From positions 69,034 to 131,903 of the forward strand of contig JAADGJ010000061.1 of the NCBI GenBank assembly GCA_013152435.1: a stretch of 62,870 nt of DNA, given 5' to 3'. The notes beneath the pieces were generated by a model. It did not search any database. It was not told the DNA's origin and was given only the letters and a program-made list of their open reading frames with translations. Source of the DNA: Chloroflexota bacterium (lineage in GTDB: Bacteria > Chloroflexota > Anaerolineae > DUEN01). The position numbers and the translations under genes were made by a program. Shown piece after piece: positions 33,011-48,138 of this stretch (the first letter of the stretch is position 1; each line of letters starts with the position of its first letter).

Positions 33011-35890
33011 CTACGGCAATCTGCGCGCTTCCAGGTCGTCGTACGTCGCCGTCGCTCGGAACAGCATCACCCCAAACCGGCCGTTTCCGTATGTGCTATC
33101 CACCGCCGTCAGTCGCTTCACCCCATCCAGGTAAGCCTCGATCTTGTTACCCCGCACGACGACCTTAACCCGATAGGGATGGTTCCGCTGCACGGACATG
33201 GAGTAGCTGGCCAGGACCTGATACGGCGGACGCTTGCTGATCTTGAACACACCGTCCACGGCATCCAGGATCACATCATAGGAGGACGTGCCATCCGCGG
33301 AGGATCGGAAGGTCAGCCCAACGGCATTGCCGCTGACCAGGTTCACGGTGCCCTCGTAGATAAAGTTGGTCCCCCCCTCCGAGCGCATATTCCAGGCGTT
33401 GCCCGCCCCGTACTGCCCGCGCATCCGTCCCCCCGAGACCGTCCACGTTCCATGGTTCGATTTCCACCCGATCAACGCGCCGCCGCTGAAGTCGTCAGAG
33501 AAGATGAGCGGAAGCGGGTAGTTCTTCAAAATCAATGGGAAGTAGAGCCGATAGCCACCGCCGACGCGAGTGGGCGTCGGTGTGGGGATGGTCGTGGGCG
33601 TCGGCGTCACCTCGGGCGTCAGCACGATGCGCACCGACTCGTGGTCGACATCATAGGCGTGAAGCCCCTGCTGATCGGTCGCCAAGGCCTCCAGAGTGTT
33701 GATGGTGGGATCGCAGCCCGCGCCGGCTTTGGCCTGGAATTCCACCCCAGGCCAAACCTGCAGCCATCCCCCGGGCGGCATCGATGGCCAGAGGGCGGTG
33801 TAATTGCTCCAATCCAGTCGCCCGTCGTCGGTGGGATCATCCGGATGGAAGGGCGATCCCGGCGGCCACCCGGTGGACACAAAGCTCAGGCAGGAAGTGT
33901 CATAGGTATCGATCAGGGACACGGTAGTGAAGGTCGTTGTGCCTGTGTTGGCAAGCACGAAGCTGAACCGGACCGTATCGCCCGGATACGCTACACCGCT
34001 GGTCGGCTGATAGAGGACCTTCTCGATGTCGACGGCCGGCCCCGGCTCCGTCAGGATCCCCACCCGGGCGCAGTGCTGAGATGTCCCATGCTCCGGGCTC
34101 TCCGCATAGCGATACCAGGCCCGGATGCAGTTCAGCGTCGGCTGACCGGGCGAGGTAGGCGCCTTCGCGTGGAAGCTGACGATGAACGTCTCCGTCTGGC
34201 CGGGCATCAGCGGATGGCCGAAGCCCTTGGGCGGTGACGACGTCAGATCCGACCAGTCCAGAACGCCGTCATCGGCCGGATCGTCGGGATCGTAATCGGC
34301 GCCTGTGAAGGAGAGGTAGGCCGTGTCATAAGTATCCCGCAGTCGCAGGCTGGTGATCGGCTCCGTGCCGACATTGGTCAAGCGAATCTCGAAGCGCACA
34401 GTATCGCTGACCACCGCCGTTCCGCTGACCGGCTGGATCAACCTCTTGGAGATCTGCAGATCCACATCCGGGTCCTGGACGCGCACGTAGTCGCACGCAT
34501 TGTCTTTCACCTGCGTCTTTCCCGCCTCCCCGGCGACGAGGACACAATTGTCGCCGACGCCGGGCTGCTTCGCCCGCAGGCGCACGGTGACCGTGAAACT
34601 GTCACCTGGTGCGAGGGCGTGCCCAAAACCGATAGGGGGCGGAGCGGTGAGGTCGGCCCAGTGTAAGATGCCCTGGCCAGGAAGCGCGGCCAGGTGCGTT
34701 GGATGAGGAGTGGCCGATACATAGCTCAGAAAATGGTCATCAAACGTGTCCGTCAGGGTCACCGGGGACAGGGGAGCATTCCCGATGTTCTTGATCTCGA
34801 TCTCGAAGGTCACGAGATCCCCGGTCTGCGCCACGCGATTCGACGGGCTCACAATCTGCTTGCGCACGGCGATCGCCGGCCTGTCGCAAGGCCCCACCAA
34901 GGTGTTCAGGAAGGTTATGTTGTTCGTCAGATCGGGATCTGGGGTCTTGGAGCTTGCCAAAGCCTCATTGCGGATGAATCCGCAGGCATCCTGATCAACC
35001 TGGACGTAGAGATCAATGAGATAGGCGCTGTTCGGCGATATCCAGGTAGGGATATCGCAACGTACCACGTCATGGGGGGGACGACTGGCGATCTGAGTGC
35101 AGATGAGCGGGGGATCGGAGCCTGTAAACTGCACCTCAGATGGCAGGGTGTCGGTGACGACGGGATGATCGATGCTCTCGGAGGAGCTCTTGTTATAGAG
35201 CTTTAGCTCATAGTAAAATTTCGCTCCCGGCGCGATCGGCTCTGATTGTGAGGATGATTTAGTCAGTTCTAGATCGGCCAGTTGAGGGGAAGAGGTGCCG
35301 ATAGGTGTCGGTGTGGGAGTGAACGTGGATACCGGCGTAGGAGTCGGCGTGGCCGTTGACGTCAGCGGGGAGGTAGATGTCGGCGTAGGGGTTGGCGTCT
35401 CGGTAGCTTCACGACGATCCCAGAACTTATTGCCTGTAAGCGTCAGTCCATCGAGTGGTTGGGTATACTGGATCCAGTTGGCATCGATCACGCTGCCGCC
35501 GACCGTGCTCGCCCCCATGGAAGTATACCCTGGTGGATCGGTTTCCACGATGTTGTAGTACTCACACGTCTCACGCACTTCCAGCCCATACCATCCCGTA
35601 GCGCTGGTAACCGTACTCCGCAGGAAAGTGCCCTTCTCCCACGCATTGTTCGAGCAGTACAGGCTCACCGTTACACCCTGAATCGGCGAGCTGAGAGGCG
35701 GCTCCTCGCCCACATTCCCGTCATAGACTCGACCCTCCAGAACGTATTGAGCGGGAGCCACCGGATCCGAACTTGCCGCGGCAGGACTCCTGCCCAAAGC
35801 GAGCCACCCCGTAGCACCCACCAACACGACTCCGAACAGCAACATCAGGAAGCTCAACCGCCTCCGGATGGAACAACATTCTCCCCACAT
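33011..35890 (-). CDS. Secreted SdrB-DUF11-LamG-like surface protein
   Basis: 959 residues. Signal/anchor helix 11-33, SdrB-type module 49-160 (GRVYDGNVGEEPP ... GNKFWDRR), Thr-Pro linker 162-200, four DUF11 repeats (about 204-760; for example DLELTKSSS, AIAVRKQIV, DLQISKRLI, DIEKVLYQP), a second linker, the motif YRLYFPLILKN, and a C-terminal concanavalin/LamG-like or DUF1080-like domain of about 165 residues (SDDFSGGALIGWKSNHGTW). Likely a wall or surface glycan-associated protein. ATG 35890 is chosen because GGAGG lies 8 nt upstream and places the signal at the N-terminus. The SdrB module is a close match to those of the 38.5 and 42.6 kb genes. Confidence 0.88.
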   Translation of the reverse strand: MWGECCSIRRRLSFLMLLFGVVLVGATGWLALGRSPAAASSDPVAPAQYVLEGRVYDGNVGEEPPLSSPIQGVTVSLYCSNNAWEKGTFLRSTVTSATGWYGLEVRETCEYYNIVETDPPGYTSMGASTVGGSVIDANWIQYTQPLDGLTLTGNKFWDRREATETPTPTPTSTSPLTSTATPTPTPVSTFTPTPTPIGTSSPQLADLELTKSSSQSEPIAPGAKFYYELKLYNKSSSESIDHPVVTDTLPSEVQFTGSDPPLICTQIASRPPHDVVRCDIPTWISPNSAYLIDLYVQVDQDACGFIRNEALASSKTPDPDLTNNITFLNTLVGPCDRPAIAVRKQIVSPSNRVAQTGDLVTFEIEIKNIGNAPLSPVTLTDTFDDHFLSYVSATPHPTHLAALPGQGILHWADLTAPPPIGFGHALAPGDSFTVTVRLRAKQPGVGDNCVLVAGEAGKTQVKDNACDYVRVQDPDVDLQISKRLIQPVSGTAVVSDTVRFEIRLTNVGTEPITSLRLRDTYDTAYLSFTGADYDPDDPADDGVLDWSDLTSSPPKGFGHPLMPGQTETFIVSFHAKAPTSPGQPTLNCIRAWYRYAESPEHGTSQHCARVGILTEPGPAVDIEKVLYQPTSGVAYPGDTVRFSFVLANTGTTTFTTVSLIDTYDTSCLSFVSTGWPPGSPFHPDDPTDDGRLDWSNYTALWPSMPPGGWLQVWPGVEFQAKAGAGCDPTINTLEALATDQQGLHAYDVDHESVRIVLTPEVTPTPTTIPTPTPTRVGGGYRLYFPLILKNYPLPLIFSDDFSGGALIGWKSNHGTWTVSGGRMRGQYGAGNAWNMRSEGGTNFIYEGTVNLVSGNAVGLTFRSSADGTSSYDVILDAVDGVFKISKRPPYQVLASYSMSVQRNHPYRVKVVVRGNKIEAYLDGVKRLTAVDSTYGNGRFGVMLFRATATYDDLEARRLP

Positions 35891-36003
35891 AGCTTCCACC
35901 TCCGTAGCACGAGTCCAGATGGAATTCGATGGCTGGCCCCAGGGTCTCCCCACGCGAAAACATACCACAAGGGTGGCTACAGAATGTCTACAGGATGCCC
36001 GGC

Positions 36004-36153
36004 GAGCTCAGAATCTGCCTTTCTCGGCCCTTCCCGAAGAACTCAGGCCGAGGCCAGGCAGGTCGAGGGCAAAAGAAGGGCTTTTTTCCGGAGGGGCTCC
36101 GCCCCTCCGAGCCTCCCCACAGCAGAAGCAACGACATTCTTCAGACACACTCT
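36004..36153 (+). mobile_element. MITE-like repeat copy E
   Basis: Nearly identical to copy C over the hairpin pair (CTCGGCCCTTCC..CTCAGGCCGAGGCC; CCGGAGGGGCTCCGCCCCTCCG) and the tail CAGCAGAAGCAAC, ending in TTCAGACACACTCT (36140-36153). It lies between the DUF11 protein start and the GH123-like gene's stop. Confidence 0.65.
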
Positions 36154-36183
36154 CAGTCCGGCAGTGCAGGATGGTGGTCTCCC

Positions 36184-38301
36184 TCACCCCCCCTCGATGA
36201 TGTCCGCCAGCTCCGCCCGCGCCGCCTCCCACACATCCGGATCGATGGGCCAACTGATATCCGTGCGAACCCATGTGGGATCGCTTGGGTCCGATACCCC
36301 ATACTCCCATAGCACCTTGGGGATCATGCGATCCACGATCTGGCGCGTGCGGACGGGATCCACCTGAGCTGCCAGGGTGAGATAGTCCACGTCTTGGATG
36401 CCGCGGCGCCACAGCTTCAAACGCAAAGAGGCAAAGGGCCCAAAGACGCCATAGCTTTCGGCGGGGAAGCGGGTGTCGGTCCCCGGGTAGAACAGCACCC
36501 CATCGCCGTTGGTATAGTTCCAACCCGCTCTCCCGAGCGAGGAATCATCCCGATCGTAGCAGCCAAAGGTCTGCGCCTGTCGGAAGACGTTGGTCTGGCT
36601 GCGAGGATCACGAGAGCCGTAGCACTGAAAGTTGACGTAGTAGGTGGACTCCCAGTAGAACCAGCGATCGATCCCCTTCTTGTAGTGGCCCCAGGCCAGC
36701 TCGCGCAGCGCCACCCCTTCGTCCTCCGTGGCGAAGGAGCCGGAGGCTGGCCGGCTGCCGTTGTACATGAAAAACCGTTTGCCGGGGGTGGCGCGCAGCG
36801 TCGCCAGGGCCTTGTCCCACTCCGAGGTGATGCCGAAGTCCGCCCCGCTGGCCGGGATATCCAGGCTGGGCACATGGGCTATCGCGTCGGGCAGGGGCAG
36901 GGTGGCCAGCGACATGAGCCGCCGACCGGGGCCGGGGTTCTCATCCATCCACCGGGCCCACCGCTCGGTCTGGGCGTAGTCATCCGATTCGTCAATGAGA
37001 TAGAGGAAGACATCGGTAGGCGTGGCGAACGCCTGCTCCTCGAACCAGACGACCCACGGATCGGTGTTCGCCCACATATCCTCTCGGGTGCCATCCCGCC
37101 ACGCCCATCCCCCGTAGGTGCCGATGGAGTAGACGCCGTTTCCCACCCCGACGCCGGGTCCGTCATATCCCCGGGCGGGCGTGAACAGATCGCCGCTCAG
37201 CCGGTCCGTCCACGCGTCCCCCATCCGGGCGATCTCCGTGTCCCCGCCGTCGATGAGGGAGATCTTGTGACGATGGGCGAGCAGGAAATGTCGATCGGCC
37301 AACCGAAGGGATCGCGTGTAGACCTCCGTGCCAGGATCAGGATAGGCCACCCCCAGGTAACGATCGTTGATGTTCTCGAAGCTGTAGAAGACCATCGTGC
37401 GGGCGGAGGGGAGATCGGGCAGGGTGAAGTCTCGCACGCGCAGACGCACAGGGACACGCCAGGTGGCAACGCCTCCCTCGGCGATGGTGAGCGTGCCGGT
37501 GTACACCCCGGCGGGGGCCGTCTTGGGGATATAGATGTCCCCCCAGATGGCCTGGTTGGTGCCCACCGGGATGGTGAAGGGAGTGTGAAGCTCCAGGGGC
37601 ACGGCGATCTCGGGATAGAACTGATCGTGGCAGGGCCGGTCCTGCCAGGTGCCGGTGCCGATGCCATTCTCATCATAGGGGCGACGACATCGCTTCGGGA
37701 TGTGGCGCTCATCGTAGTCATCATAGGCCAGATCCACGCTCAGGCCCCTAATCTGAAGATAGCGCACGTAGAACAGCTCGATGTTGCGCCCCACATAGTT
37801 GAACAGATCCTCCCGGATGGCCGATCGGGTGGCGATGCGGGCGCCGCCGGGCCCGTCCAACGAGGTCAGGGCCACGGTGACGTCTCTGGCCTCGGCGGTA
37901 GGGGCCTCCAGGATCAGGTTGAACGACACCACCTCGTTGCGAGCGCCGAAGAGGGAGATGGTGCGGCCGTCCCACACGGAGTTGCGCACCGAATCGGGGT
38001 CGTTCGTGGCGCGCAGCTCACCACGCCAGACTTTGTCACCGCCCTCGTTGGCCCAGACGTGGGCGATGTGTCCGGGTGCAACGGGCGTCAAGGCGGGGGT
38101 AGGTGTGGGGCCCGGGGCGGATCCATCGCCTCGCAAGATCCAGGGCAGGTAACGGTGCGTGCCCGTTCCCTGCCCCCCATGGGCGATCACGCCGGGAAGG
38201 CTCCCCCCGACATCGCCTGCCGACCGGGCCATGGCGAGAACGCCAAACGACAGGACCCACACGACGATGAAAGCCCCAATAACGCCGCCCCATCCCCTCA
38301 C
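36184..38301 (-). CDS. Secreted GH123/DUF4091-type protein
   Basis: 705 residues. Membrane/signal helix 7-25, then [10 protein letters not shown], a short Thr-Pro linker, a beta-sandwich part (about 80-290), and a barrel-like DUF4091 catalytic region. Asp437-Glu438 in YLIDESDD is placed like the Asp-Glu pair that GH123 N-acetylgalactosaminidases use for substrate-assisted hydrolysis. [12 protein letters not shown] (about 640-651) is a well-conserved DUF4091 ending. It may act on N-acetylhexosamine glycans outside the cell. Next to giant secreted proteins on the same strand; no close operon partner (240 nt upstream gap). Confidence 0.82.
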
Positions 38302-38500
38302 TCCAACCTCCGGAAACCTTCAGGGATGCACCACACCTAATGCACTACACGAAAAGAGGGGACCTTCCCCGGCCGCCTACTCCAAACACGCCCGGTACAT
38401 GATGGAAAGCCCAAGCGACAGGGCAGATTTTCATATCCGCCCCCTCGAGTCGGGCGGCTATGGCAAGCCGCTTCCTTGTGATATCCATTGCCTGGGCGGA

Positions 38501-38526
38501 TAGAGGCGGCTCATGAATCGCCTCTA
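38501..38526 (-). terminator. Stem-loop after the metzincin protein gene
   Basis: TAGAGGCG / CGCCTCTA with a 10-nt loop, 15 nt past the stop at 38541. The minus strand continues with TCCGCC, no U-run. Confidence 0.6.
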
Positions 38527-38540
38527 CCCGCTTCGCAACG

Positions 38541-41500
38541 CTAACGTCGGAGGAACACCGGCATGTAGGTCGGATACCGCACGGAGACCCGCACGCTGGC
38601 GGTGGCCCGCATGCCGTCCTGATCGACGGCGGTCAGCGTGATGCGGTGCTCGCCCGCCGAGAGCGTAGCCATCACCTCCCCGCCGGTGCCCAGGGCGCCA
38701 TCCCGATCCGATGCCCAGCTCAACGAGGCATCGGTCAGGGGCCCGTCCTCCGGGTCGTACGCGTAGCCCTCAAACATCACCGGCTGCCCCGGGCGCAGGA
38801 AGCCGCCCTCGGATGGCCAGCTGATCTCCACCTGTGGCGGCTTGCGCGCCACGCTGAACGTCCCATCCGAGACATCCTGCGCCGTCAGCAGCCCATCGCT
38901 GGCCACCACGCGCACCATCGCCTGAGCGCTCCCGGCCAACAGCGCCGAATCGAATCTGAAGCGGGTCCCCTCCAGGTCGGTGGCCAGGGTCGTCCAGGTC
39001 TCGCCGCCATCCGCACTGACCTGCACCAGGAAGCGTAACGGATCCCCGTCCTCGTCGCCAGCCTCCCAGACGATCTCTCGCGTGCCGCCCTCCCAGGTCT
39101 CGCCGCCGTTGGGCGAGAGGACGCGCACGTACGGCGGATGCGCGCTTACCTCTCGGGAAGCCAGCACACGATCCTCACACCGCACCTCGACCCGCGCCAG
39201 ATCCGGGTGATCGGGCACCAGCTCGTAGATGGTCTGGTACTCATCCTCGCCCTCGACCGGATCGGTGTCCGCCCTTGGGGTGAAGGGGTACTCGGCCAGC
39301 AGCCGGTTCCCGGCGTCCCACAGCACGATCGCGCAGGAACCTCCCGTCGGCTGCTCGGGGGCGGGCAAGGTCATCCGATAGAGGGGATCCAGCTCCGCCT
39401 GTCCGGTCGTCTTGTTGATCACCCCGCTGACCAGCAGGACCTCCTGCGGCGCGGCCGCCCGGGCCGGGAGCAGCGGGAACTGAGCGATGCGAGCCCGCAA
39501 TCCATTGTAGGTGAAGGTCGAGATCCACTGCGGATCACAGTAAGTCATGACGTCATAGTACGTGTTATAAGGGTAAACCTGCAAGCTCTGAATGTCCATC
39601 CCATATTCGCCGATCATGCCGTGCGCATAGGGATACGGTTTCCCTCCCTTAGCGTCGCAGAACTCGGCGTGATAGCGATTCAGGCAATGCCCCAACTCAT
39701 GCCCGGCCAGCGCCCCCGTCCACTCATCCCCACGAACGCTATTGATCCAGACATTGGCTGGAAACACGACCCCTGCCGCCTCGCTGCTAGGAATGCCATT
39801 CGCCTTACCAACGACATGGGTGCCTTTACAGCTATACTCGTAGTGATAAGGCACCATCCCATAGTACAGCGTGTTGGCTCCCAGCGTGGTCGTAGAAGTA
39901 GTTCGCAGCTTTGCGATCTGATTGTCCAGCTTCGCCCAGCCGCCGCTACCGCACAAGTCAGCAGGTTTCACAGGAAGCGTCAGCGTAACCGGATGTCGCG
40001 CGGTGACCACGTTGGGGACCGGATACGCCCGCCGCAGCCAGCTGCGGATGTTATTCATGGCGTTTGCGTCCGGCATGCGCACGGTCTTCCCCAGCTTGTA
40101 CGTGACGGGCACGAAGACCACGCGCAGCGGCGGCATCTGCAGGAAATTCACGATCCGGGTCTCCTGCAGCTCGCCAATGGCCGAGAAGGATACACCCGGG
40201 GGTGGGAATATACGTATGAGCATCCCGCCCGATCCCGTAGCATACTTCGCGGGGATCACGAAGTTCAGGGAATGGCTGAACACCCTCCGCTGAGGGTTGG
40301 AGCGGACCGTCACGGTGCTCAGGGGGTAGAAGATGCTCCCTCCCGCCCCGTAGGGATAGCGTATCTCGCCGCCCACGTTCGGGATATCCCCCTTGCCATC
40401 GGCCACCCGCAGGTGGACGCGCACGACGGCCGTCTTGCCGGCGATGAGGGGAACCCCAAACCCATTGGCCCACTGGATGGCCTGGGTGATCTCCACGCCG
40501 GTGACCTGCACATGTCGGCTGATGGGGGGCGTCGTGGGCGTCGGGGTCGGTGTGGGCGTCGGCGTGGGCGTCGGTGTGGGCGTCTGGAAGGAGCTGCTCG
40601 TCACCACACGGACCACCAGGAGCGGGGCATGCCCTCCCTCCCGGCTGGAGAAGCCTCGGCCCCACGCGCTCCCCTCCTCCGGGCCGACCACCGCCACACC
40701 GTAGTTCGGCACGCTGCCATCGATCCACCCTTGCACCAACGTCGTGATATCCCAGCTCTTGTACCCGGTGGACTTGTCCACATAATGGGTGGCGGCGGGG
40801 ACGGAGTGATAACTCGGTTGGTTGCTCCACGTGATGTTCGGGTACCAGGGCGGCGCCTCCCGCCACGAGCTCCGCACTCGATGCACCGAGATACACACCT
40901 TCTCCCGGCCTCCTGACTGCTCCAGATACAGGTTCAGCGAGGCCTGGGTCACCACGGCGTCCTTGGGGATATAGGAGAGATCGAAGCGGATGAACGTCCG
41001 GCTGCGAGAGGGATCAGGACCGCTGCTAAATCCCGTGAGCAAGACCGGCGCCTTACCGAAGTTGCCCGTCGGTGCCTGCGCGCTCACGTAGGCGTCGGCG
41101 CTCGCGTCGCGGATGAGCTGCTCCCCGAGCACGGGACGGGCGAAGATGTCGTTCCCTGCCAACTCGCCGGGCGGTGGCTGCTCGAACTGCAGCCAGCCCT
41201 GATTCGTCGCATATCCCCCGCTATCCGACTGGGCGCCGATGACGTGGATATCGTCGCCGCGCACGATCAGGTTGTAGTAGGGCGCATCCTCCTCCGCCGG
41301 GGTGGTGTACGGGATAGTGAACCGACCCAAATCGTCGGTCTCGACCTCGGCCACCAGGATCCCTTCCTCGCACGAGATGTTCGCCTTGAAGAGGCCCACA
41401 GGGACCCGAGGCCAGGGCCGATTTCTCTCGCCGGGCTCGCTGCGATACACGTATCCGACGAAGACCCGCTCGACCGTGTCCTTCAGCTCCACGACGAAGT

Positions 41501-42536
41501 CGTTGTCCGCATAGTCCCCCGGCGGGGGATCCTGAAACCGAATCCATCCCTGATCCGTAGACTGGCCGCCGCTGCCGGAGACCGCCTCCAACACCCGGTA
41601 GCGTGGATCCGCGATCACGATGTGCCAGTACTCGTAGTCCTGCAAGGCGACGGTCCCGCCGCCACCATCGGAGGTCAAGCTGTACGTCCCGTCCTCTCCC
41701 GATCGGGCGCTGGTCAGCAACGTCCCCATCTCCTCCGGGTTAGCGGAGCCATACAATGCCACCAACACGCCCTCGGCCGGTATGGGCTCCGGAAACGACG
41801 GGTCGGTTAGGGTGTTCACGCGGCCCATGAACCGCCATGGAAGCGTCGAGGCGGTCGCGCTCGGCGTGGGGGTAGGCGTATCCGTCGGCAGCGTCGTCCC
41901 GGTGGGTGTGGGGGTGGGCGTGGGAGTTGGGGCGCCGGTCGGCGTGGAGGTGGGAGTGGGGGTAGCCGTCGGGACGGGGGTGGGCGTGGGCGTCCAGGTC
42001 GGGCTCGGCGTCGCCGTCGGCGTATCCGTCGCCGGAGCCAGATCCCAGAACTTGTTGCCCGTCAGCGTCTTGCCATCCAGGGGGAGGTCATATCGGATCC
42101 AGTTCGCGTCTACGACATCTCCGCCGACGCTGGTGGCCCCATTGGAGGTGTAGCCCGGCGGATCCGTCTCAACGATATGGTAGTACTCGCACACGTCGCC
42201 ATCGTACACATCCAGCCTGTATTGCCCCGTGGAGTCAGTGACGGCATCCCGCAGCTTGGTGCCCCACACCATAGCGTCGTTGGAACAGTACAGGCTGACG
42301 GTCACCCCCTCGATGGGGGTGCTGTTTGGGGGCTCCACCCCGGTCTCGCCCTCGTACACCCGGCCGTAGAACGTATAGGCCTGGTCGGGCACGGCGGGGG
42401 CGTGTTGGAATCGGGAAGCTGCCGGGCTTTCCGTGCGCTCCAGCGCCTGCACCCAGTAGGGCAGGAGCACGAAGAGCCCCAACAGCAGGATCACCAAAAG
42501 CCAACCAACCCGGCGGTGCTTTCCGAGACGGCCCAT
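38541..42536 (-). CDS. Secreted SdrB-DNRLRE-metzincin-type protease
   Basis: 1331 residues. Signal/anchor helix about 11-31; SdrB module 54-165; Thr-Pro linker; two more degenerate SdrB-like modules (about 245-470); DNRLRE-type domain (about 472-640, DASADAYVS...RTFIRFDLS); second linker (about 649-671); a protease domain with HELGHCLNRYH (His946, Glu947, His950, His956) and the later Met-turn DVMTYC; Ig-like C-terminal domains and the end YMPVFLRR. HExxHxxxxxH with a Met-turn indicates a metzincin, but the usual Gly is Asn953. ATG 42536 is chosen because AAGGAGG is 8 nt before it. Neighbours carry the same N-terminal module. Confidence 0.88.
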   Translation of the reverse strand: MGRLGKHRRVGWLLVILLLGLFVLLPYWVQALERTESPAASRFQHAPAVPDQAYTFYGRVYEGETGVEPPNSTPIEGVTVSLYCSNDAMVWGTKLRDAVTDSTGQYRLDVYDGDVCEYYHIVETDPPGYTSNGATSVGGDVVDANWIRYDLPLDGKTLTGNKFWDLAPATDTPTATPSPTWTPTPTPVPTATPTPTSTPTGAPTPTPTPTPTGTTLPTDTPTPTPSATASTLPWRFMGRVNTLTDPSFPEPIPAEGVLVALYGSANPEEMGTLLTSARSGEDGTYSLTSDGGGGTVALQDYEYWHIVIADPRYRVLEAVSGSGGQSTDQGWIRFQDPPPGDYADNDFVVELKDTVERVFVGYVYRSEPGERNRPWPRVPVGLFKANISCEEGILVAEVETDDLGRFTIPYTTPAEEDAPYYNLIVRGDDIHVIGAQSDSGGYATNQGWLQFEQPPPGELAGNDIFARPVLGEQLIRDASADAYVSAQAPTGNFGKAPVLLTGFSSGPDPSRSRTFIRFDLSYIPKDAVVTQASLNLYLEQSGGREKVCISVHRVRSSWREAPPWYPNITWSNQPSYHSVPAATHYVDKSTGYKSWDITTLVQGWIDGSVPNYGVAVVGPEEGSAWGRGFSSREGGHAPLLVVRVVTSSSFQTPTPTPTPTPTPTPTPTTPPISRHVQVTGVEITQAIQWANGFGVPLIAGKTAVVRVHLRVADGKGDIPNVGGEIRYPYGAGGSIFYPLSTVTVRSNPQRRVFSHSLNFVIPAKYATGSGGMLIRIFPPPGVSFSAIGELQETRIVNFLQMPPLRVVFVPVTYKLGKTVRMPDANAMNNIRSWLRRAYPVPNVVTARHPVTLTLPVKPADLCGSGGWAKLDNQIAKLRTTSTTTLGANTLYYGMVPYHYEYSCKGTHVVGKANGIPSSEAAGVVFPANVWINSVRGDEWTGALAGHELGHCLNRYHAEFCDAKGGKPYPYAHGMIGEYGMDIQSLQVYPYNTYYDVMTYCDPQWISTFTYNGLRARIAQFPLLPARAAAPQEVLLVSGVINKTTGQAELDPLYRMTLPAPEQPTGGSCAIVLWDAGNRLLAEYPFTPRADTDPVEGEDEYQTIYELVPDHPDLARVEVRCEDRVLASREVSAHPPYVRVLSPNGGETWEGGTREIVWEAGDEDGDPLRFLVQVSADGGETWTTLATDLEGTRFRFDSALLAGSAQAMVRVVASDGLLTAQDVSDGTFSVARKPPQVEISWPSEGGFLRPGQPVMFEGYAYDPEDGPLTDASLSWASDRDGALGTGGEVMATLSAGEHRITLTAVDQDGMRATASVRVSVRYPTYMPVFLRR
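40525..40590 (-). repeat. Thr-Pro coding microsatellite in the metzincin gene
   Basis: Hexamer-based tandem repeat (GGCGTC / GGTGTG units on the plus strand) coding for about 20 alternating Thr-Pro residues between the DNRLRE and protease parts. Purity suggests it can change length by slippage. Confidence 0.75.
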
Positions 42537-42633
42537 GAGCATTTCCTCCTTCGGCTCCCCCGCCAGACATGCACGCGACGGCGATACGGCGCGTACGCCG
42601 CCGCAGATCACGCCCCGTGGAGGACAAGCCACA

Positions 42634-45600
42634 CTAGGATGAACCCCTCAACAGGATGGGAAAGTAGAGACGTCCTCGCGACCGCCCGGTGCCTACCACC
42701 ACGGTCACCGGATCGGCCGTTTGGCTCTCGTACGCGACGGTCCCGATGATCCTGTACGTGCCCTCCGGCAGACCCGACGTGTCCCAGACATCCTCGAAGG
42801 GGATCGTCCCGCCCGGCTCCAGATCGGAGATCTCGTGCCGGAACTCCCGGACGATCTCGTCGGACTCGTTCAGGACCCGGATCACGGCAACGCCGTCGAG
42901 CGCCACCGGCCCCGTGTTGGCGAACGTCATCGAGATCTGGATGGGATCGCCGACGCGGAAGCGCTCCGGCGTGGCCGTAAGGCGGGTGACCGCCCCGGAG
43001 GGAGCGCCCAGCGTGAACGTGCTGGTCCGCCTGTCCAGCGTGCGTCCCTCCGGATCCCGCAGCGTCACTTCCACATAGTAGACGCCCGGCGCCACGCCCT
43101 CGCTGCTCCAGCTCGTGGAGAAGGAGGCGGCCCCGGCCAGGTCCGCCAGCGTGCGCAGGAACAGCGAATCCACCAGCTCATCGCTGCCGTACCGCCGGAT
43201 CACCGCGCCGACGACCACGTCCTGAACCCCCTCGGTCTGATCCAATCGTGTCTCAACGGTCACCGTTTCGCCTGGAGCGTATTCCTGCTTATCGGTCGTC
43301 AACTCCGCCACCGTCGCCGGGGAGACGGTGTAGGCGATGTCGAAGCCGTAGCGGCGATAGAACCGGACATCGGTCGTCAGGGGGTTATACTGGAAGGCGT
43401 ACACGGTGATGTTCAGAGTGCTCGTGCCGTCCGGGTTCTCCATCACCTCCCAGGCGTAGTCCTTCCCGGGGAACCACCCCTCGACGGGGCCCGCATAGGT
43501 CTGCGGCTCGCACTGGCAGACGGTAGGAGTGATGGGCGTCATGGGAACGTTCAGGCCGGTATCCGTCACCAGCCCCGATCTCTCGGCCAGGCCCACGTCC
43601 TGGATCCGGTACCCCCGTGGATAGTCCACGGAGACGGTGTAGAAGGGCACCCGCAACTGGCCCGGCTCCAGCCATAGCTGGCCTCCGGGGATCTCGACAT
43701 CGTCCAGACCCTCCCCGAAGGCATCCCGGTGCACCACGTAGTCGGGGACCTCGACCTCCAGGAACGAAGGTGGCTCCGCCTGCGCCGCCAGGGTGCGCTC
43801 CCCGCGGCTCGCGCTCCCGGCCGGCGAAATAACCCCGAACTTGGGATCGCCGTACAGGTTGTATTCCCACACCCAGAACCACCAGTCGCTCTTCACGTTC
43901 TTCCCGCCGCTGATCCAGGCATCTCGCTCCAGCTTGGTGAACGCTTCCCCCACCGATTCAGAGGCGCGCCAGTCCCGATAGAGCTTCTTAGCCGCCTCTC
44001 GATTCTCATACCCGTACGATTCTTGGGTGGAGCCGATGTAGATGGCCGCCCCGCTGGCCAGGAAGGATTCAGCGATGTTCTTCTCCTCTAGATATCCGGC
44101 GTCGTAGTTCCCCGTCAGACAGGACATGGCCAGGACGAAGGGGGTATGCTTGTTGAAATCGAGCGGGAACACAGAGTACGGATGGTTGGATGGTAGATGG
44201 GAATTGATGCCATCCGACCACTTGTTGATGTTGCCGTGACCGGACCAGAAGATGACGTCCTTGTTCCGTGTGAATCCCGGCAGCGCATCGTGAACCCGCT
44301 TGATCCAGTTCCAGGAGTCGAAGCAGGATACGCCCCCATTCGTCGCATACTGTGGACTGGCCACACACACCTCGTCCCTGTTCCCCCCGAAATTCCCCAC
44401 ATCGCCGGCCGCGATGCCATCGAACTTATGTAATGTACTGGGAATGCTGGGATTGCCCGCGATCCACTTGTTCTGATTCTCGTTCCACTCATAGACCATG
44501 ATGCGACTGGAGACATCAGCCAGGAGGATCTGATCCTTAGCCGGCTGATTCCTTCCATACACGTTGCCGACGGCCAACCCGTCGCCCGGCTCCAGCTTGT
44601 TGCCATACTGGAACCATGACCACTTCCCCTTGTCCCTGCGCCGGACGTAGACCTTGTCCAGGCTGATGTCGGCGGTGATGATCTCCTCCTTGGAATCCCC
44701 CATCACATCGCCGACGGCGAGGCGATCGTATGCGTCGAAGGAGGCGCCGAGCGAATCCACGAGGACGACAACGAAATTGCCGGAGATCAGCTTCCGAATC
44801 TCCCAGGTGTGAATGGCGTCCGCGCTCGCATCCGCGTGAACGATCTGATCCGTCCCCTGCCCCAACACGTCGCCCGCCGCCAGCTCATCTCCGCTCGCGA
44901 AGTAGGCGTTGAACTCGAGGACCAGGGTTCCATCGGCCTTATAGACGGCGATCTTGCCCGTGCTGGCGTCGCCGATGATGATCTGCGCCTTGCTCCCGCC
45001 CGTCACGTTCCCCACCGCCAAGCGGTCGTCCTGGGCGAAGTCCCGCTGGAACGAGCCCGCCGCGGTCCCATTCGCCGTATAGATCGAGATCGTGTTCTGA
45101 TCCATGTCCCCGATCACGATCTCCTCTTTGGCATCTCCCGTCACGTCCCCTATGGCGAAGCCGTCACGGGTCTCGTAGGTCCGGGAGAAGCTCGAGACCC
45201 GGAAATACTCGCCCCAGTGCATCTTCTGTACGGTGGCGTACTTGGGCGCCAGGATCTGCGCCACGTCGTTCACGTCCTTGACGAACGATCCGAACCCGGG
45301 GCCACTGATCAGCAACGCGTGATTCCGGTCGAACGCGTAGTTTGAGTCGTGCGCGTACACGCCGATGCTGGCCTTGATCGGCTTCGCCAGGACCGCGGCG
45401 CTGTCGCCGATGGTCCGGCCCACGATGAGGTCCGGGGCCGGGCTGCCGCCCGTGTCGGCGTAGGGATGATCGCTGTAATCGACCGGCAGCTTGCTCCTGA
45501 ACCCGCTGCCCGACCACGCGGGGACGATCTCCGTCTCGCCGACGATCAGCAGATATCCGCTCATGGGCTGCGAGAACCGGGCGCTCATGCGCTTCGCCCA

Positions 45601-48138
45601 GGCGCCGCCGGGCTTGATCAGGCTCTTGAGGGTGGAGGCGTTGTAGACGTCCAGATATCCCAGCGCGCCCAGCTCGTAGACGGCCAGTTGCGCCATATCG
45701 GAGAGCAGATCATCCACCTCATTCGACAGGTAGTGGGAGAACAGCCGCGCCGGGTTGGTCACCAGCAGATAGTCCGCCGCCCCGGTGGCGTTTCGGTGGG
45801 CGACCGGGATCGCCTCGCCGTTGGTGGTCTGCAGGATTTTCAGGTTGAGCTCCTGGTAGTGCCGGATCCCGCCCGGCCCCTCATACCAGATCCGCACCGA
45901 CTCGCCGATGGAGGGAGTGGGCGGATTGGGGTACATGAGCACCGGGACGACGCCGTAGCTGTACGCCCGTGAAGCCCCCTGGGGAAGGCTCGTATAGTCC
46001 TGGATCGCGCAGTCGGCGCGTTTGTTCGTCGAGCTGTAGCGGGCCTCGTACTTGATCAAGGTGGGGGTGGTGGTCTGACGGGAGATGGGCTGAAACGCCC
46101 GCATGTAGTCCTGGATATAGATGTTCTTCGCCGCCGCCGCCCCGACGTTCTTCACCGTCAGCGTCACGACGAGCCCGTTCCCCAGCCGGGTGGCCTTGTG
46201 TTCTGTGACGACCAGCTTGGGCTGAGGAGGGGGCGGGGGGTTCGACACGACCACGTCCACCGTGTCCACCCCGGTCTTGCCCTCCACATCCCAGACCTTG
46301 ACGCCAACCCGATGGCTGCCGTTCGTCACCGAGGATGGATCCCAACGCCATTGCACGGTGGTGCGCCTCGTCTCACCGGGGATGGATGCCACCTGGACTT
46401 TGGTCCCGTCCACGTACAGGACGGCATCCGCCAGCCTGAGGTCATCCGTCAAAACCGCCGTGACCGTGATCTCGCCCGTCACAGTCGCGCCCTGATGGGG
46501 ATAGGTGATCGTGACCTGGGGCGCCGTCCTATCCGTGATGTTGTCCACCCGGATCACGCGCTCATCGACGGCGGCCTTGCGAGCGAGGTCATACGCGCGC
46601 GCGGTGATCACATGGTCCCCGTTGATGTACTCCCTGCAGTCCAGAGGGAACTCATAGGGCGGGGAGTAGTCCGTGAAGGCCCGTTCCCCATCCAGGTAGA
46701 ACTCCACCCGTTCCACCCCGCGGTCATCGGCGGCCTCGGCGGAGATGACCACACTCCCCCGACAGACGCCGGGATCCTGAAGGCGGACGAAGGGATCGGC
46801 GCCATCCGGCGGCGGCGCGGTCTGGAAGACCCCATCCCGGCTCTCCACCGCGTTCCCGCTGGGATCGGCGGATCGCACCCGGAAATGGTAGGTCGTCGCG
46901 GGGTCCAGCCCCGTCAAGACGACGCGATGCTCCCTGACGAAAGCGCCGTCCCCTTTCTCGAAGGGATACTCCTCGGCCGTCGGGCCGTATCGCACCCTGC
47001 TATCGCTATCCTCGTCGGTCTCCCAGAGGATGACGGCGGAATCCTGGGTGATTTCCTCCACGACGGGGCCGGACACGATCCGCGGGGGGACCGTATCGCA
47101 CTTCCAGCTCTCCTCCCGGGTGTTGTTCGTCTCGTCGCTTTCCCGCACATCCCCGCCGTAGTCCGCCTGGGCCGCGATGTGGTCCTCCGGCGGGGTGCAC
47201 TCCCACGCGATGTCGAAGCATCCCTGCCACCGCTCCCCCGGCTCCAAGTCCAGCTCCGCCGGCTGGCTCGCCCGATGCTCGCCATCGATGAATAGGGCGA
47301 CCTCGTGCCCCTCGACGGCCACCGCGTCGCCGATGTTCCGCACCTGATAGCAGATGGCCCCGTCCTCATGCCACAAGTCGGTCACGATCAGGTCGGGTAG
47401 CTCCGAAGGCCCGACGGTCGGCGTGAAGGTCGGCGTGGGGATCGGAGTATCGGTCGGCTGCGTGCCGGTCGGCGTGACCGTGGGCGTCGCCGTGGAGGTT
47501 GGGGTAGGGGTGGCGGTGGATGTCGCGATGCCAGTGGGCGTCATGGTCGGCGTGGGGGTCCGGGTCGGCGTCCAGGAAGGAGTGGGCGTGGGTGATGAGG
47601 TGGGGGTAGGCGTTACGGTCGGGGTGTCCGTCGCCAGCCGCCGATCCCAGAACTTATCCTCGGTCAGCGTCTTGCCCGTCAGAGGGATCTCATATTCGAT
47701 CCAGTTCTCGGTCCACACCGTCCCGTCGACGCTCCATGCGCCATCAGAGACGTAGCCATCCGGGTCCGTCTCCCGGATGTGGTAGAACTCGAAGTTGCCG
47801 TCGTCGTCGTACACAGTCAGGCTGTATCGACCATCGGCTCCCGTCACCGTGCTGCGGATCAGCGTCCCAGCGTTCGGATATGAGCCGTTCGAACCGTAAA
47901 CGGAGACGACCACCCCCTCCAGGGGGGCGGCGTCCGGCGGTTCGGAGCCCACATCCCCTTCGTACACCCACCCTTGAAAGGTCCAGCTGGTCGTGAGCCT
48001 CTCCCGCGTGGGCACCACGCCGGAGTCGGCCTCGACCGTAGCGCTCATCCCCTCCAAGCCCAAGCCCCCCAACGCCAGGAGGGCACTCAGCGCAACGCCC
48101 GCAAGTACGGCTCTCAGGAGAAGATCCCTCATCCGCAT
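42634..48138 (-). CDS. Secreted SdrB-CARDB-C25 gingipain-like protease with inserted FG-GAP propeller
   Basis: 1834 residues. Signal helix 6-29; SdrB module about 50-165; long Thr-Pro linker 170-245; CARDB about 246-350; fibronectin-like about 352-450; Ig-like modules about 455-660; C25-type region from about 788 (DYLLVTNPARL, then LLIVGETEIVPAW); six FG-GAP repeats about 990-1268 (pattern D-x-LAVGDVxGD); then the catalytic His1301 in FWSGHGNINK and Cys1340 in AMSCLTGNYD; finally CARDB/Ig-like modules and the end RLYFPILLRGSS. His and Cys are those of clan CD, so an active cysteine protease is likely. The propeller is inserted before the catalytic pair. GACGAGG precedes the ATG. Confidence 0.9.
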   Translation of the reverse strand: MRMRDLLLRAVLAGVALSALLALGGLGLEGMSATVEADSGVVPTRERLTTSWTFQGWVYEGDVGSEPPDAAPLEGVVVSVYGSNGSYPNAGTLIRSTVTGADGRYSLTVYDDDGNFEFYHIRETDPDGYVSDGAWSVDGTVWTENWIEYEIPLTGKTLTEDKFWDRRLATDTPTVTPTPTSSPTPTPSWTPTRTPTPTMTPTGIATSTATPTPTSTATPTVTPTGTQPTDTPIPTPTFTPTVGPSELPDLIVTDLWHEDGAICYQVRNIGDAVAVEGHEVALFIDGEHRASQPAELDLEPGERWQGCFDIAWECTPPEDHIAAQADYGGDVRESDETNNTREESWKCDTVPPRIVSGPVVEEITQDSAVILWETDEDSDSRVRYGPTAEEYPFEKGDGAFVREHRVVLTGLDPATTYHFRVRSADPSGNAVESRDGVFQTAPPPDGADPFVRLQDPGVCRGSVVISAEAADDRGVERVEFYLDGERAFTDYSPPYEFPLDCREYINGDHVITARAYDLARKAAVDERVIRVDNITDRTAPQVTITYPHQGATVTGEITVTAVLTDDLRLADAVLYVDGTKVQVASIPGETRRTTVQWRWDPSSVTNGSHRVGVKVWDVEGKTGVDTVDVVVSNPPPPPQPKLVVTEHKATRLGNGLVVTLTVKNVGAAAAKNIYIQDYMRAFQPISRQTTTPTLIKYEARYSSTNKRADCAIQDYTSLPQGASRAYSYGVVPVLMYPNPPTPSIGESVRIWYEGPGGIRHYQELNLKILQTTNGEAIPVAHRNATGAADYLLVTNPARLFSHYLSNEVDDLLSDMAQLAVYELGALGYLDVYNASTLKSLIKPGGAWAKRMSARFSQPMSGYLLIVGETEIVPAWSGSGFRSKLPVDYSDHPYADTGGSPAPDLIVGRTIGDSAAVLAKPIKASIGVYAHDSNYAFDRNHALLISGPGFGSFVKDVNDVAQILAPKYATVQKMHWGEYFRVSSFSRTYETRDGFAIGDVTGDAKEEIVIGDMDQNTISIYTANGTAAGSFQRDFAQDDRLAVGNVTGGSKAQIIIGDASTGKIAVYKADGTLVLEFNAYFASGDELAAGDVLGQGTDQIVHADASADAIHTWEIRKLISGNFVVVLVDSLGASFDAYDRLAVGDVMGDSKEEIITADISLDKVYVRRRDKGKWSWFQYGNKLEPGDGLAVGNVYGRNQPAKDQILLADVSSRIMVYEWNENQNKWIAGNPSIPSTLHKFDGIAAGDVGNFGGNRDEVCVASPQYATNGGVSCFDSWNWIKRVHDALPGFTRNKDVIFWSGHGNINKWSDGINSHLPSNHPYSVFPLDFNKHTPFVLAMSCLTGNYDAGYLEEKNIAESFLASGAAIYIGSTQESYGYENREAAKKLYRDWRASESVGEAFTKLERDAWISGGKNVKSDWWFWVWEYNLYGDPKFGVISPAGSASRGERTLAAQAEPPSFLEVEVPDYVVHRDAFGEGLDDVEIPGGQLWLEPGQLRVPFYTVSVDYPRGYRIQDVGLAERSGLVTDTGLNVPMTPITPTVCQCEPQTYAGPVEGWFPGKDYAWEVMENPDGTSTLNITVYAFQYNPLTTDVRFYRRYGFDIAYTVSPATVAELTTDKQEYAPGETVTVETRLDQTEGVQDVVVGAVIRRYGSDELVDSLFLRTLADLAGAASFSTSWSSEGVAPGVYYVEVTLRDPEGRTLDRRTSTFTLGAPSGAVTRLTATPERFRVGDPIQISMTFANTGPVALDGVAVIRVLNESDEIVREFRHEISDLEPGGTIPFEDVWDTSGLPEGTYRIIGTVAYESQTADPVTVVVGTGRSRGRLYFPILLRGSS
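47410..47632 (-). repeat. Thr-Pro coding repeat in the C25 gene
   Basis: Imperfect tandem hexamers (GGCGTC/GGGGTC type on the plus strand) coding for the Thr-Pro-rich linker of about 75 residues between the SdrB module and CARDB domain. Similar tracts lie at 41860-42035 and 35290-35400. Confidence 0.7.

Follow-up and report, generated by a model that had tools for sequence, protein, structure and literature searches.

Domains of the SdrD_B family (Pfam PF17210) include the B domains of the staphylococcal surface proteins SdrD and SdrG, which lie between adhesin and wall, and in ordinary members of the family a DxNxDG loop carries much of the calcium. The B domains of SdrG are mechanical linkers, and a calcium-dependent strength is known for SdrG and SdrD (PMC6232131). 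A second described group with a similar fold comprises the prealbumin-like pilin domains of the Cna_B/SpaA type, found in sortase-assembled pilins. Further points of reference are the serralysin- and ADAM-type metzincins, the gingipain-type C25 proteases, and the YLP-box, named as a putative sorting motif in NCBIfam entry NF050076. In the window analyzed here (the whole stretch of 62,870 nucleotides from a Chloroflexota genome), three genes encode proteins that share a module resembling the B domains. This module is a distinct, uncatalogued subfamily of the SdrD-B/prealbumin-like beta-sandwich with its own signature. With a probability of roughly 0.6, it is interpreted as an exposed structural or adhesive unit on secreted, surface-retained multidomain proteins.

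Locus organization and the shared module

The genome containing the window comprises 4.97 Mb in 149 contigs. Between 33.0 and 48.1 kb, four co-directional minus-strand genes all code for secreted proteins, and the group is flanked by an MFS transporter on one side and by an ABC transporter and its solute-binding protein on the other:

42634-48138, minus strand: C25 gene (42.6 kb protein)
38541-42632, minus strand: metzincin gene (38.5 kb protein), likely ATG start at 42542
36184-38301, minus strand: GH123-like secreted gene, without the module, between the 33.0 and 38.5 kb genes
33011-35968, minus strand: DUF11 gene (33.0 kb protein), likely ATG start at 35890

In a same-genus record (L051, 1-6112; L-numbers label sequence records), set against 35.9-42.5 kb of the window, the DUF11 and C25 genes are adjacent and the block of metzincin and GH123-like genes is absent, indicating a gain or loss of approximately 6.5 kb.

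The original prediction described a module of about 110 residues common to the 33.0, 38.5 and 42.6 kb proteins, with a set of quoted motifs, a Thr-Pro linker behind it and two degenerate copies in the 38.5 kb protein. All of these elements were recovered: the modules are about 112 residues long and contain the quoted motifs, a Thr-Pro tract follows each of the three, and the degenerate copies were found at 41 and 29 bits.

47638..47985, minus strand: module of the 42.6 kb protein, without the Cys pair, 92% identical to the L023/L069 module
47392..47637, minus strand: Thr-Pro linker after the 42.6 kb module
42036..42377, minus strand: module of the 38.5 kb protein, Cys-pair type, used for the structure model
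approximately 41490..41837, minus strand: degenerate module copy 1 of the 38.5 kb protein (41 bits)
approximately 41136..41468, minus strand: degenerate module copy 2 of the 38.5 kb protein (29 bits; coordinates from residues 394-504)
35411..35746, minus strand: module of the 33.0 kb protein, Cys-pair type, 78% identical to the same-genus L051 module
35297..35407, minus strand: Thr-Pro linker after the 33.0 kb module

Pairwise protein identities among the three modules were 67, 54 and 56%, with alignment scores of 291-394 over 112-116 residues and more than 50 invariant columns. Against other SdrD_B domains of the same genome the modules scored at most 89, with approximately 25-37% identity where the alignment covered the domain (six controls, taken from the genome's eight best other domains, with the reverse-strand L003 and L005 left out of the score comparison). 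The likeness among the modules is therefore well above that to other SdrD_B domains, as the original prediction required. A search of the genome ranked the three window modules at the top (E 5e-76, 4e-46 and 2e-30), followed by L020 (contig 74), in which the module accompanies a beta-helix payload, and L021 (contig 97), where two modules accompany another metzincin. On the minus strand of L021 (2720-5794 and 5470-7080) the metzincin gene overlaps an open reading frame (ORF) in another frame with IWGTG-type propeller repeats, and the first module is shortened; this is a frameshift or an assembly error.

Fold and sequence signature

The AlphaFold2 model of the 38.5 kb module (pLDDT 97.1) adopted an SdrD-B/prealbumin-like sandwich. 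Its best PDB match, first of 999 chains, was an SdrD B domain (Z 11.2, 2.3 A, 98 residues, 26% identity), and the closest solved structures were B domains of staphylococcal SdrD and UafA (Z 10-11). The module resembles SdrD_B domains in predicted fold, in occurrence on surface proteins and in tandem repetition, but differs in several respects. The three window proteins scored 20.3, 21.9 and 13.8 bits against PF17210, all below the curated cut-off of 29.7 bits, which one relative with two modules (L056) clears at 32.9 bits. The EF-hand-like DxNxDG loop near the N-terminus was found in none of 88 modules, compared with seven of the eight same-genome SdrD_B domains, and with this calcium-bearing loop missing, the comparison with SdrG B domains as mechanical elements may not hold. 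Furthermore, the module carries its own C-terminal NKFWD signature and often stands at the N-terminal tip of the protein, unlike the SdrD and SdrG B domains.

In an alignment of 35 module sequences from the window and the named records, the signature reads EYY.I.ETDPxGYxSxGA ... TLTGNKFWD, of which NKFWD and ETDPxGY are conserved in bacterial and archaeal members alike. Cysteines in LYCSN and CEYY were both present in 19 modules and both absent from 68, with only the second present in one; Cys-type modules fall mostly in one clade, so these counts are not independent events. The covarying pair, both cysteines being gained or lost together, fits a putative disulfide. With the Cna_B/SpaA domains the module shares the fold and an E-box-like ETDPxGY, but it does not occur in sortase-assembled pilins. 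An isopeptide-bonded pilin domain was rejected, as the Glu and Asn108 are conserved but the first strand lacks the conserved Lys for the isopeptide bond.

A fold matching B domains that serve as mechanical linkers in SdrG (PMC6232131) would also suit a plain spacer, that is, a rigid SdrD-B-like stalk without binding, kept for stability and distance. Consistent with such a role, the module occurs in tandem, and in several proteins it is placed between other beta domains. However, a spacer does not need the position at the N-terminal tip, and the conservation of NKFWD and ETDPxGY in both bacteria and archaea further argues against it; this explanation is considered unlikely.

Distribution and position in proteins

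A scan of GTDB species genomes yielded 28 module loci. These were distributed among the bacterial Chloroflexota (Caldilineae, Anaerolineae, Thermoflexia), candidate division KSB1 and WOR-3, and among the archaeal Methanophagales, Methanoregulaceae and Methanosarcinales. For the class to which the window belongs, a module match (E 1e-12) was obtained in 57 of 298 genomes; a phylum search gave 3 of 400 genomes (E 1e-10), the sample and the number of scored candidates being different from those of the class search. In one Methanosarcinales record (L078, 1642-2547 and 2469-3737) the module is divided over two frames, a probable frameshift.

Module proteins are nearly always exported, a hydrophobic segment lying upstream of the module in 63 of 70 5'-complete ORFs, consistent with the link to location implied by the original prediction. 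The first module begins within 50 residues of this segment in 48 of the 63 and further in for the remaining 15. Close to ten modules adjoin the C-terminus and some are found mid-protein; in the paralogues L131-L138 the module lies near the C-terminus and is followed by a Thr-Pro tract and then the tail.

C-terminal ends

YLP-box-like peptides were recognized in all four proteins of the gene group:

42637..42669, minus strand: YLP-box-like C-terminus LYFPILLRGSS of the 42.6 kb protein (end of the same-genus counterpart: TRLYLPILLKRSR)
38544..38567, minus strand: YLP-box-like C-terminus YMPVFLRR of the 38.5 kb protein
38128-38157, minus strand: YLP-like peptide near the N-terminus of the GH123-like protein
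33521..33553, minus strand: YLP-box-like YRLYFPLILKN of the 33.0 kb protein, internal, after the second Thr-Pro tract and before the LamG-like domain

Defined as [YWF][LMF]P plus hydrophobic residues within the last 22 positions, YLP-like tails were present in 23 of 63 module ORFs (those of at least 250 residues with the stop codon inside the data), compared with 0.4 expected from shuffled tails and 21 of 968 other ORFs of the same loci. NF050076 gave no match at E 0.1 on the four window proteins, and the motif was assigned by inspection; the window versions YFPLILK, YMPVFLRR and YFPILLR fall below its 15-bit cut-off. The same-genus counterpart of the C25 protein has an LYLPILLK tail. Two matches in the window's genome exceed the cut-off, one of them the module protein L020. 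The YLP-box is thus found on the tails of many module proteins, yet is an element separate from the module. No paper on Chloroflexota sorting signals or the YLP-box was found in the literature.

YLP-box-like peptides also occur internally or near the N-terminus beside Thr-Pro tracts, both in the window (the peptides at 33521-33553 and 38128-38157) and in L135, L144, L120 and L122; as judged from these sequences, such positions do not fit a strictly C-terminal sorting signal.

Other module proteins end differently: with a transmembrane segment (the archaeal L075, and L072, where it precedes a further domain), with an LPxTG-like end (L044, L142, L145), or with T9SS-type FlgD/Por_Secre tails (KSB1). 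The original prediction proposed the module as a surface docking part. In a fuller version of this reading, the N-terminal module itself would anchor varied exported payloads to one partner, for example an S-layer, a polysaccharide or a pilus-like carrier. The strongly conserved motif set that accompanies unrelated payloads, the almost invariable export of its carriers and the placement of the module beside the tail in L131-L138 would agree with this. However, at least four kinds of C-terminal end occur on module proteins, and the module is also found mid-protein or beside the C-terminus. The coexistence of four other kinds of end, including the transmembrane segments of archaeal L072 and L075 and the T9SS type of KSB1, would make a second anchor redundant, and among Chloroflexota the module proteins themselves are strongly enriched in YLP-like tails. 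Since the module stays constant while the ends vary, it is unlikely to be a general anchor; anchoring probably lies outside the module, in the tails, and docking by the module is regarded as improbable. A broader proposal holds that the module is a recognition domain shared by Chloroflexota, KSB1 and methane-cycling archaea for one common extracellular partner, moving as a Thr-Pro-flanked cassette from protein to protein and from one domain of life to another; this is decidedly improbable.

Payloads

As originally predicted, the DUF11 repeats, the metzincin and the C25 protease of the three module proteins show no mutual resemblance:

44287..45159, minus strand: six GDVxGD...EI..D repeats (FG-GAP-like) of the 42.6 kb protein, preceding the C25 active-site segment
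44110..44247, minus strand: C25 active-site segment, with His in WSGHGN and Cys in AMSCLTG
40611..41108, minus strand: CBM96/DNRLRE domain of the 38.5 kb protein
39372..40520, minus strand: metzincin-like catalytic part of the 38.5 kb protein (aligned region)
39669-39701, minus strand: zinc site HELGHCLNRYH of the 38.5 kb protein
39534-39557, minus strand: Met-turn YDVMTYCD of the 38.5 kb protein
33659..35278, minus strand: DUF11/DUF7507 repeats of the 33.0 kb protein (DUF11 9.5e-25; low end approximate)

The C-terminal domain of the 33.0 kb protein is LamG-like by inspection; in Pfam this end has a weak match to 3keto-disac_hyd (3-keto-disaccharide-hydrolase-like). The metzincin label of the 38.5 kb protein is based upon motifs, and the best PDB matches of the profile are metzincins (ADAM33, E 2e-5; serralysins). 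HExxHxxxxxH was present in all eight family members reaching the site, the eighth residue being G or N (N in the window protein), and the Met-turn follows D.M.Y; the structure model of this part, built from 3 sequences, had a pLDDT of 39. The protein therefore shares the zinc motif, the Met-turn and a profile match with serralysin- and ADAM-type metzincins, but no Pfam family was above cut-off for the family (window 39372-40520; L054, L071, L119, L120, L129, L143). The 42.6 kb protein contains CARDB, fn3, Big_7 and Peptidase_C25 domains (PF01364, 3.7e-21), PF01364 matching in two stretches. It is like gingipain-type C25 proteases by Pfam and unlike them in the six FG-GAP-like repeats before the active-site segment; Pfam gave no match for the repeats themselves, which are possibly a beta-propeller nested inside the protease.

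Across relatives, the payloads comprise DUF11/LamG-like, metzincin, C25, beta-helix, PKD/GEVED, CARDB/PASTA, TSP3-like and papain-like types, such that the search for the module with other payloads, suggested by the original prediction, returned it on three protease types and many non-proteases. In a Thermoflexia-type family (L067, L068, L148, L098, L099) the module is attached to a papain-like part with no Thr-Pro linker between them; this part carries PSGCGATAWAM ... VNQGWG and is not recognized by Pfam.

A pro-part, the other role named in the original prediction, would keep protease payloads inactive until cleavage in the Thr-Pro linker. The N-terminal placement on three unrelated protease types would agree with this, but the reading was rejected on payload range and is very improbable, given that the same module occurs on many proteins without a recognizable enzyme (beta-helix, DUF11, PKD/GEVED and CARDB/PASTA proteins) and that a single prodomain for metzincin, C25 and papain-like folds is unlikely.

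Histories of module and payload

The original prediction further envisaged an ongoing modular delivery system, with payloads swapped by recombination in the Thr-Pro-coding repeats, and proposed a DNA-level alignment of the modules as a check. Four-fold degenerate sites were alike at 13/46, 11/39 and 15/35 positions (28, 28 and 43%), and codon usage alone predicts 36, 37 and 40%; synonymous sites are therefore randomized and exchange at the locus was not seen. Same-genus counterparts retain module and payload together, the C25 protein with L069/L023 (92% module identity) and the 33.0 kb protein with L051 (78%). The module tree agrees, pairing the window C25 module with L023 (100/100) and the 33.0 kb module with L051 (99/90). 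No chimeric module-payload allele was present in the one same-genus genome, and in the L051 protein the signal peptide and the module both resemble their 33.0 kb counterparts, which speaks against a module cross-over at this point. The Thr-Pro tracts are 12-base unit repeats that are alike through composition and codon bias; their low complexity, together with the strong divergence of the modules, prevents any breakpoint from being assigned to them.

Over a longer time scale, the module tree required 15 payload changes compared with 33 when shuffled, a grouping by payload far above chance though not perfect. In a payload tree of few sequences, L054 and L071 form a sister pair by their metzincin parts (100/99), and the two proteins share a related N-terminal domain (36% identity). 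Their modules, however, belong to different clades: a union of the two was rejected (AU p 5e-7), as was the union of L054/L071 with the window's metzincin module (AU p 1.5e-4). Either the module was replaced, or a two-module ancestor lost a different copy in each lineage; L040 and L059 carry tandem modules in the order [Cys][no-Cys], and differential loss from such pairs could mimic exchange. In this one tested case, the sequences suggest that module and payload probably parted over deep time.

In favor of ongoing swapping, the module borders on Thr-Pro tracts, which lie at both of its ends in L054 and L071, and these two proteins are otherwise collinear with modules of different lineage. Yet it was the module and not the payload that changed in this pair, the window modules have randomized synonymous sites, module-payload pairs are conserved in relatives, and searches of phages and viral contigs gave no match to the module, and plasmids a single weak one (32%, E 4e-3), leaving the proposal highly unlikely. 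The modular system as originally conceived accordingly holds for one module on many exported payloads and, in one deep-time case, for discordant histories, but not for swapping at the locus.

Proposed role and significance

In the preferred reading of the module as an exposed structural or adhesive unit, the signal peptide would direct the protein through Sec, and the C-terminal YLP-box-like tail would, in Chloroflexota, hold the payload near the envelope; outside this phylum a transmembrane segment, an LPxTG-like end or a T9SS tail may act as the holder. An N-terminal module would then be outermost, forming a rigid head, often parted from the rest by the flexible Thr-Pro linker, that may bind a neighboring polymer or protein. 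The adhesive part of this reading is suggested by the fold together with SdrD/SdrG biology. New combinations would be rare, arising via ordinary domain shuffling and afterwards being inherited together with the payload. With respect to the module part, the three genes of the window would be paralogues of old standing rather than the outcome of a recent exchange.

These results add a cross-domain subfamily to the SdrD-B/prealbumin-like surface domains, one that current libraries miss or score below cut-off. In Chloroflexota that are for the most part uncultured, and about whose surface biology little is known, the module marks a set of stalk proteins and secreted proteases. Furthermore, if the module has a single partner, this small, well-folded protein could be used to fish that partner out.
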